A stretch of 64,000 bases of DNA, from assembly GCF_019947135.1 (NCBI RefSeq), contig NZ_JAGSHT010000018.1, forward strand, positions 62,001 to 126,000, given 5' to 3'. Of the stretch, positions 13,889 to 14,989 are shown piece by piece. Origin of the DNA: Occultella gossypii. GTDB taxonomy: Bacteria; Actinomycetota; Actinomycetes; Actinomycetales; Beutenbergiaceae. Below the pieces are notes generated by a model that saw only the letters and a list, made by a program, of their open reading frames with translations, was not told the origin of the DNA and ran no database searches. The number at the start of each line of letters is the position of its first letter. Positions within the stretch are counted from its first letter, which is position 1. The position numbers and the translations under genes were made by a program.

Positions 13889-14935
13889 TCAGAACAGCGC
13901 CAGCTGCTCCTGCCCACCGCCGGGCTCAAGCGTCGGGACCGAGGCGGCACCGCCGTCGGGCATGGTCCCGCGCAGCGGGAATTGGCGGTTCTCCCGGGAG
14001 ACGAACCCGTGCCGCCGCCGGGTGGCGCGAAGCCGCCCGGTGAGCCACTCGCGGTACTCGACGGAGACGTACGACCCGCCGTCGTACAGGGTGCGGTACC
14101 GGGGCACGAGCTCGGGGTGGTCGCGGCCGAGCCAGGCTAGGAACCACTCACGGGCACCGGGGCGCAGGTGCAGGGCACCGGCCGTGATCCAGGTGGCGCC
14201 GGCCTCGGCGACGGCGCCGAACAGCGCGTCCAGGTGGGCATCGGAGTCGGTCAGCCAGGGCAGGATCGGCATCGCCATCACGGTGCAGTCGAGCCCGGCA
14301 CCCGTGATGGCGCGGACCAGATCGAGACGGGCCTTCGGGGTCGGGGTGCCGGGCTCGACGCGCTGCTGCAGGTCGGGGTCGACGAACGCCAGGGAGACCC
14401 CGAGGCCGACCTCGACCCGCTCGGCGGCGGCGACCAGCAGCGGCAGGTCGCGCTTGAGCAGCGGGCCCTTGGTCAGGACGGAGAACGGGGTGCCGGAACC
14501 GGCGAGCGCCTCGATCACGCCGGGCATCAGCCGGTAGCGACCCTCCGCGCGCATGTATGGGTCCGAGTTGGTGCCCAACGCCACGTGCTCACGCTTCCAG
14601 GAGGGCCGGGCCAGTTCCTTGCGGAGCACCTCGACGAGGTTCGTCTTGACGATGATCTGGGTGTCGAAGTCGTTGCCGGAGTCCAGGTCGAGGTACTCGT
14701 GGGTCTTGCGGGCGAAACAGTAGGTGCACCGGTGCAGGCAACCTCGGGTTGGGTTGATCGTCCACCCGAACGGCATCTCGGAGTTGCCCGGCACCTTGTT
14801 CAGGGCGCTGCGGCAGAGCACCTCGTGGAAGGTGACCCCGGCGAACTCGGGCGTGCAGACGCTGCGCACCAGGCCCTTGAGCGGCAGCAGCGCCGTGTCA
14901 TCGGTGGTCGTGAGTTCCCGCGCTTCCCATCGCAT
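13889..14935 (-). CDS. Rv2578c-family radical SAM protein, SOS-controlled candidate
   Basis: This is 348 aa. The radical SAM cluster motif is CLHRCTYC (Cys66, Cys70, Cys73, a CX3CX2C spacing). The family is related to spore photoproduct lyase (COG1533) and includes mycobacterial Rv2578c; no activity is firmly assigned. The C-terminus is EQLALF, which fits the bacterial sliding-clamp binding consensus QL(S/D)LF with Ala at the variable position. A LexA-type palindrome lies 9-24 bases upstream of the ATG and overlaps a TATGTT -10 hexamer. The message would then be almost leaderless, in keeping with a GGGGAG that abuts the start codon. Clamp tethering plus LexA control suggests a DNA-repair role, which is an inference. 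Confidence 0.88.
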   Translation of the reverse strand: MRWEARELTTTDDTALLPLKGLVRSVCTPEFAGVTFHEVLCRSALNKVPGNSEMPFGWTINPTRGCLHRCTYCFARKTHEYLDLDSGNDFDTQIIVKTNLVEVLRKELARPSWKREHVALGTNSDPYMRAEGRYRLMPGVIEALAGSGTPFSVLTKGPLLKRDLPLLVAAAERVEVGLGVSLAFVDPDLQQRVEPGTPTPKARLDLVRAITGAGLDCTVMAMPILPWLTDSDAHLDALFGAVAEAGATWITAGALHLRPGAREWFLAWLGRDHPELVPRYRTLYDGGSYVSVEYREWLTGRLRATRRRHGFVSRENRQFPLRGTMPDGGAASVPTLEPGGGQEQLALF

Positions 14936-14943
14936 CTCCCCAT

Positions 14944-14959
14944 TCGAACATACATTCGA
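14944..14959 (-). promoter_or_regulatory. LexA (SOS) box
   Basis: The sequence TCGAACATACATTCGA matches the mycobacterial/actinobacterial LexA consensus TCGAAC-N4-GTTCGA at 11 of 12 fixed positions. On the minus strand it overlaps TATGTT, a plausible -10 hexamer ending 11 bases before the start codon. LexA binding there would block the radical SAM gene. It lies in the 54-base gap downstream of the alpha/beta hydrolase gene. Confidence 0.75.
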
Positions 14960-14989
14960 ACGCTGGTCGACGGCATGACACGCGGGCCG

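Follow-up and report, generated by a model that had tools for sequence, protein, structure and literature searches.

A LexA box and a sliding-clamp-type C-terminal peptide are shared by most of the Rv2578c-family radical SAM proteins analysed

We analysed a 64,000-nucleotide stretch of Occultella gossypii DNA (contig NZ_JAGSHT010000018.1, positions 62,001 to 126,000; hereafter the window), in which a radical S-adenosylmethionine (SAM) gene of the Rv2578c family appears, from its upstream sequence, to be under LexA (SOS) control. The product ends in a short peptide that very likely docks on the sliding clamp, DnaN, judging by its form and conservation. The two features occur together in most of the family: 201 of the 213 sequences with a readable start combine a LexA box matching at least 9 of 12 fixed bases (between -200 and +45) with a clamp-type or LF-ending tail. 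The initial annotation of this gene had staked its reading on tail and box being present in most orthologues, and they are. This joint signal is real and general, and we conclude that the window protein probably acts in repair after being brought to damaged sites of replication. The features of the gene, in window coordinates, are these:

13889..14935, minus strand: Rv2578c-family radical SAM gene, 348 amino acids, ATG start (open reading frame list, NF038135, PF04055)
13892..13906, minus strand: QLALF codons, the last five residues, a peptide of the beta-clamp-binding type (kept in kind in 179 of 218 sequences)
13892..14002, minus strand: codons of the flexible linker and tail, about residues 312-348 (AlphaFold2 pLDDT, identity by segment)
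14717..14740, minus strand: CLHRCTYC codons, residues 66-73, the [4Fe-4S] radical SAM site CX3CX2C (three cysteines invariant in 60 of 60 aligned rows)
14942..14947, minus strand: TCGAAT, inferred to be the -10 element; it overlaps the LexA box in its downstream half (141 aligned promoters, last T kept in 99%)
14944..14959, unstranded: LexA (SOS) box TCGAACATACATTCGA (gene orientation: TCGAATGTATGTTCGA), spanning -24 to -9 relative to the ATG and matching 11 of 12 fixed bases (pattern match and conservation)
14965..14970, minus strand: inferred -35 element TCGACC (family consensus TTGAC), 17-nucleotide spacer (alignment of 141 promoters)

The counts are based on 227 loci. These came from a search of the class, in which 134 of 296 sampled genomes contained a match to the window protein, from 59 relatives (27 with a match), from a scan of named genomes (72 loci) and from fetched stretches. 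The C-terminus was complete in 225 loci; after two open-ended loci (L068, L128) and seven duplicates were dropped, 218 distinct sequences remained, which include the window's own gene and some paralogues that share one genome. Promoters were counted in 211 family genes for the interval -100 to 0 (own gene included) and in 213 genes with a readable start for -200 to +45. A wider draw across the phylum gave 170 of 396 genomes with a match, remote matches included.

A palindrome with 11 of the 12 fixed bases, as the initial annotation had reported, is present at 14944-14959. Single boxes of this kind are not rare: when up to 2 mismatches are allowed, each strand of the 5.84-Mb genome yields 705 matches, compared with 138 for a reversed-letter control; 2 of the sites listed are exact and several dozen have one mismatch. 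It is therefore conservation across relatives, and not the match itself, that gives the box significance. Between -100 and 0, a box was found at 9 or more of 12 positions in 198 of 211 genes, at 10 or more in 176 and at 11 or more in 123. Controls for this interval gave far fewer matches. The reversed pattern was found in 5 genes at 9 or more, 1 at 10 or more and none at 11 or more; letter shuffles (five per gene, 1055 in total) gave 33 and 2 at the first two thresholds; and an in-gene control stretch gave 18 at 9 or more and none at 11 or more. The wider search found a box of at least 9/12 in 209 of 213 genes, with 141 boxes placed at -23 to -25.

These 141 genes share a promoter layout. A -35-like TTGAC starts eleven bases upstream of the box, and a 17-nucleotide spacer separates it from TCGAAT as the -10. 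The last T of this -10 lies two bases past the box and is kept in 99% of the genes, and the ATG follows seven bases after the T when the box is at -24. The window promoter reads TCGACC-N17-TCGAAT, and this layout agrees with the earlier claim that the box overlaps the -10 region. Such a placement would have transcription begin at the ATG or right beside it. The simplest reading is then a message without a leader, and the transcript of the window gene is probably leaderless. Seven upstream regions of the Streptomyces type are arranged differently: the box is farther up and runs into a -10-like TCTATT, after which comes a short leader containing GAGGAGG or AGGAGG, similar to a Shine-Dalgarno sequence.

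The window genome has one LexA match and one DnaN match, and boxes of the same kind are found upstream of its recA (11/12) and dnaE2 (11/12); near lexA the best is 10/12. A perfect 12/12 box precedes a SAV_6107-like HEPN gene elsewhere in this genome (L001/L316, contig C8, at about 17390), and the open reading frame after that gene resembles dinB by eye.

That such radical SAM genes can be under SOS control has been published and is not new. Early lists of LexA-regulated mycobacterial genes may include Rv2578c. Table 1 of PMC9380542 gives the S. venezuelae radical SAM gene vnz_31145, a possible orthologue of the window gene, as a LexA ChIP target induced 20-fold by mitomycin C; the box published for it did not turn up upstream in the loci we read. 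PMC8151990 describes an M. tuberculosis ‘DNA repair photolyase’ gene as RecA-dependent under mitomycin C, and PMC8565304 and PMC3765255 place splB (COG1533) in the SOS networks of several phyla.

The second part of the signal is the tail. The window translation ends in ...GGGQEQLALF, so the final EQLALF reads as first described. We scored a tail as clamp-type if it contained Q-x-x-[LIM] followed by F, L, I, M, V, W, Y, G, P or D, no more than nine residues from the end. This rule held in 179 of 218 sequences; the Q was exactly five residues from the end in 159, and an L occupied position -2 in 186. When a hydrophobic last residue was required, Q-x-x-[LIM]-hydrophobic was found within the last 10 residues of 166 of the 218. 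Shuffling the last 45 residues of each protein predicted 1.2 such tails, compared with 164 observed among 216 (two sequences were omitted, as their match to the window protein ended early). Chance was therefore rejected as the source of the box and tail signal, on the strength of the shuffles, the reversed-pattern control and the counts over relatives. Ascertainment was rejected too: one of the six peptides used in the named-genome scan (EPGGGQEQ) extends into the tail, and without the scan loci 126 of 152 sequences still have the motif and 23 more end in LF.

The tail varies by lineage. Occultella and some Georgenia have QLALF, the named Mycobacterium loci QPTLF, the f11 genomes QPTLF or QATLF, and the f27 genomes, which bear inteins, QDALF; Streptomyces and Streptosporangiaceae end in QLTLL or QLSLL, and the f25 genomes in DEQLALPGFGG. 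Among 1444 pairs of alignment rows with cores 40-65% alike, the core averages 57% identity and the last five residues 35%, and the linker between them 17%. When all pairs are taken, the penultimate position reaches 70% identity, and positions -20 to -6 reach 10-18%. The arm, tail included, ranges from 20 to 68 residues in 60 aligned sequences, and AlphaFold2 predicts disorder in the window protein at residues 322-343 and 345-348 (pLDDT below 50). By sequence and model, the C-terminus is built like a tethering peptide carried by a predicted flexible arm.

Peptides of the Q-x-x-L-F/L type are the consensus for binding the beta clamp. The window protein has one in a predicted disordered stretch and the motif is kept by descent, as in a clamp client; the DnaN encoded in its genome resembles DnaN chains with solved structures (best E 5.5e-109). 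A close parallel is ImuB of the mycobacterial mutasome, whose clamp motif QLPLWG is required for foci and function (PMC10421592). ImuB belongs to a damage-inducible system, as the window protein appears to do, and likewise has a Q-x-x-L-aromatic motif. Unlike the window protein, ImuB is an inactive Y-family polymerase hub in which the motif is internal and no radical SAM domain is present. The ImuB-like protein of the window genome has QDGLWG by eye.

Both features extend beyond the class. At 30 loci elsewhere in the phylum (L269, L272-L300), the tail rule held in 25 and a box of at least 10/12 was found in 29, in a search that spanned up to 250 bases and more. Of the five that miss the rule, one (L281) is cut by a contig end and four have an internal or variant motif by eye.

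The PA0069 family (NF033668), a sister to the Rv2578c family, shares the core, a C-terminal QxxLF/L tail and, in most genes read, an SOS-type box of the host lineage, whereas its linker is shorter and its LexA boxes differ from that of the window gene. All four proteins tested (L246, L248, L251, L301) exceed the NF033668 cut-off, and the alignment reaches to or within two positions of the end of the model, which thus covers the tail. PA0069-type tails in plasmid records read DQLTMF, DQLTLF, DQLRLF, DQLPLF, DQLSLF, VQLSLL, AQLRLL, GQYSLF, PQGELF and EQLRLF. Up to 420 bases upstream of the matched core, an exact GTTC-N7-GTTC was found at 8 of 10 alphaproteobacterial genes, against a background in either orientation of 1 in 33,756 bases at the same loci, and an exact CTGT-N8-ACAG at the single gammaproteobacterial gene. 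We take these to be the LexA boxes of alpha- and gammaproteobacteria, respectively. The two alphaproteobacterial genes without an exact GTTC-N7-GTTC belong to Pseudorhodobacter (one mismatch) and Methylobacterium bullatum; Gemmatirosa has the tail AQLSLGI and no box that we could name. The tails EQLSFF in Acetoanaerobium and QQSLFD in Roseburia suggest that the peptide extends to Clostridia. In a FastTree tree of 117 proteins, whose root and long branches are unsure and which leaves out L321 (Roseburia) and L281, the tail changed 6 times by the strict rule, and 3 times if the four internal or variant motifs and the near-match EQLSFF are counted as tails.

Several observations weigh against this interpretation. 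Within the family, 13 of 211 genes lack a 9/12 or better box inside 100 bases. Thirty of the 218 tails lack the Q and end in LF (with no more than two residues after it), 7 have no motif, and 2 have QLSLL 31 and 33 residues before the end. At the window box, no promoter is called by a generic scan for the sigma-70 consensus, which demands an A that TCGAAT lacks at position 2; the promoter call therefore rests on comparison, through the conserved -10/-35 layout. Six PA0069-type actinobacterial genes (L301-L306) keep a tail (DQPTLFD, QPTLFD, QPSLLD and similar) and have no actinobacterial LexA box (best 8/12), so tail and box can separate. No tail was found in the distant relatives from Priestia, Paenibacillus, Nostoc and Haloarcula or in L307, L308 and L310-L312. 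Short C-terminal motifs can serve other partners. No conserved operon partner hints at a lesion, as the largest neighbour group includes only 10 of 72 loci. Finally, the hydrogen-donor cysteine of spore photoproduct lyase (SPL) has no counterpart in the window protein, which reads GTNSD in the aligned region.

Two of these groups have further features. The pair with an internal QLSLL is from Actinomadura (L109, L114), and the extra residues are of odd composition, perhaps from a recent loss of a stop codon or a sequencing frameshift. In L308 and L311 the C-terminal 70 residues match HHH_8, a DNA-binding helix-hairpin-helix (E about 1e-9), which is, as predicted from the profile, an alternative route to DNA.

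The window protein is assigned to the Rv2578c family at 509.4 bits (NF038135, cut-off 430), with residues 1-311 aligned to positions 1-316 of the 317 in the model, and it shares its CX3CX2C site, tail type and LexA box with most members read. The C-terminal tail falls outside this model, whose match ends at residue 311. PF04055 (Radical_SAM) also matches above its cut-off, whereas the score for the PA0069 family, 189.8 bits, is below the curated cut-off of 360. The closest named proteins are from O. aeris (95% identical) and O. glacieicola (89%). The radical SAM site proposed at the outset was read as CLHRCTYC. In 37 of 218 distinct sequences (e.g. L055, L132, L206), the match to the window protein is interrupted near residue 73, as by an intein; the insert directly precedes the third cysteine (C73) of the site in the three junctions read, and NF038136 is an existing model for an intein-containing subfamily. 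The f24 genomes contain a divergent second clade (L226, L232-L234, L236-L241; 41-48% identity to the window protein), in some of them alongside a closer copy. Its tails read RQLALV, RQLTLV, AQLALV, RQLSLI or RQLSLL, and a box of at least 10/12 is present at 8 of 10 loci.

Kinship to SPL, which had been proposed for the window protein, is confirmed by the sequence profile (HMMER alignment) and by the predicted fold. The protein is predicted to have the SPL fold, and the nearest fold is that of a lesion-reversing lyase (SplB structures PDB 4fhc, 4fhf, 4k9r). In SPL a cysteine acts as hydrogen donor, and C140 mutants are named in the titles of PDB entries. The column of this cysteine in the MAFFT alignment is uncertain by one or two positions, and the window protein has no cysteine at 121-127. 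Cysteine is present in all 60 rows only at columns 66, 70 and 73; the next best column is 217, with 40 of 60. Because the donor is absent, the window protein is not an SPL, the chemistry of that enzyme does not simply carry over to it, and lesion reversal can be proposed only conditionally. Two further differences from SplB are regulation and the tail: SPL expression is tied to sporulation, whereas the window gene appears to be under SOS control, and the Bacillus SPL compared has no clamp tail. Thus, of the suggestion that this is an SOS lesion-reversal enzyme at the replisome, the joint box and tail signal stands, while the reversal itself stays conditional.

Based on these results, we propose a model of clamp-tethered repair of DNA lesions under SOS control, which we consider the likely reading as a whole. 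It builds on the family, box, promoter layout, tail and their conservation, as read from the sequence, and on the predicted fold; to these it adds, as the best explanation, DnaN binding, DNA as the substrate, a lesion and an order of events. In undamaged cells, LexA bound to the box covering the -10 of the probably leaderless promoter would keep the gene off. DNA damage would lead to RecA-driven cleavage of LexA and release of the gene. The product would be an SPL-like barrel with a SAM-binding [4Fe-4S] cluster, followed by a disordered arm. The Q-x-x-L-F/L peptide at the end of this arm would bind the hydrophobic groove of DnaN, and docking would bring the enzyme to clamps at stalled forks or gaps. 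There it may make a 5'-deoxyadenosyl radical and undo a base lesion in place, possibly a crosslink or a dimer, while the ImuB/DnaE2 bypass system, also bound to the clamp, works next to it.

It is also possible, if unlikely, that the protein is a clamp client that does not reverse lesions. Such a protein could modify bases, or process a DNA end or adduct, in damage signalling or mutagenesis, like an accessory of ImuB/DnaE2. The missing SPL cysteine would fit, as the chemistry may differ, and the mutasome employs the same kind of clamp docking (PMC10421592). In addition, PMC3765255 describes other bacteria that pair SplB-like genes with ImuB-C genes, and DUF4130 with SplB-like and uracil-DNA glycosylase genes. 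However, the nearest fold is that of a lesion-reversing enzyme, and among the 72 loci no widely conserved neighbour ties the gene to the mutasome.

The tail could instead be a degradation signal or another terminal signal, such as a C-degron that restricts the protein to the period of damage. SOS proteins are frequently short-lived, the tail is hydrophobic and placed on a disordered linker, and its Q has a fixed distance from the end in most sequences. We regard this as improbable, because the strong preference involves Q at -5 and L at -2 and so goes beyond the last residue, because several sequences have one to seven residues added past the motif, and because the form of the tail matches the tested mycobacterial ImuB clamp motif. 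Slightly less probable still is a true SPL that works in vegetative life and repairs 5-thyminyl-5,6-dihydrothymine, which is opposed by the missing donor cysteine, by the clamp tail that the Bacillus enzyme lacks, and by the window protein's lack of a match to the equivalog model TIGR04070 at E up to 0.01.

The surroundings of the gene are plain. The gene beyond its 3' end is convergent, and the window gene stands alone as far as seen; the clustering of neighbours used uncurated flanking open reading frames, about 2.5 kb on each side of the 72 loci. A viral structure library gave 21 matches at E up to 0.001, the best being an unnamed protein, A0A7S5RCB4 (E 5e-12, 15% identity), and those with names are mostly general radical SAM proteins. 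All 10 matches in phage records are below 60% identity. PMC12924846 identifies an Rv2578c-family gene as the attachment site of the Samy prophage in Streptomyces; this phage therefore integrates into a probable damage-response gene.

Membership of the window protein in the Rv2578c family is already known. Judging by the papers searched, the tether is new and so is its breadth: the open PubMed Central papers gave no report of a radical SAM or SPL-like protein with a clamp-binding tail, and the literature searched gave no known substrate for the Rv2578c and PA0069 families. A related case is archaeal. In PMC4929162, SplB-like genes adjoin nreB, so that a neighbouring Nre gene ties them to PCNA, the sliding clamp; mitomycin resistance depends on the PCNA motif of NreA, and the author speculates on crosslink repair. 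The difference is that the clamp motif is described there in NreA, and less clearly in NreB, not in the SplB-like enzyme.

More broadly, we give an even chance to the following proposal. The Rv2578c/PA0069 superfamily may be an unrecognised class of SOS-controlled, clamp-tethered radical SAM DNA repair enzymes in Actinomycetota and Proteobacteria, and probably in some Clostridia. Its members would reverse a lesion directly at the clamp, perhaps a crosslink or a bulky pyrimidine adduct but not the spore photoproduct. They would do so without the SPL cysteine, either competing with translesion polymerases or acting in sequence with them, and some distant relatives would use a helix-hairpin-helix domain instead of the tail.

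A conserved clamp peptide together with SOS control, in two families and with three kinds of LexA box (one of them in a single gene), points to proteins that act on DNA, at the clamp and after damage. This replaces a vague ‘SplB-like’ label with directly testable proposals for two widespread radical SAM families. If the proposals are true, a repair enzyme that uses radical chemistry would join the known clients of the clamp. These bacterial proteins would also be linked to the archaeal association of SplB-like proteins, Nre and PCNA, for which PMC4929162 proposes crosslink repair.
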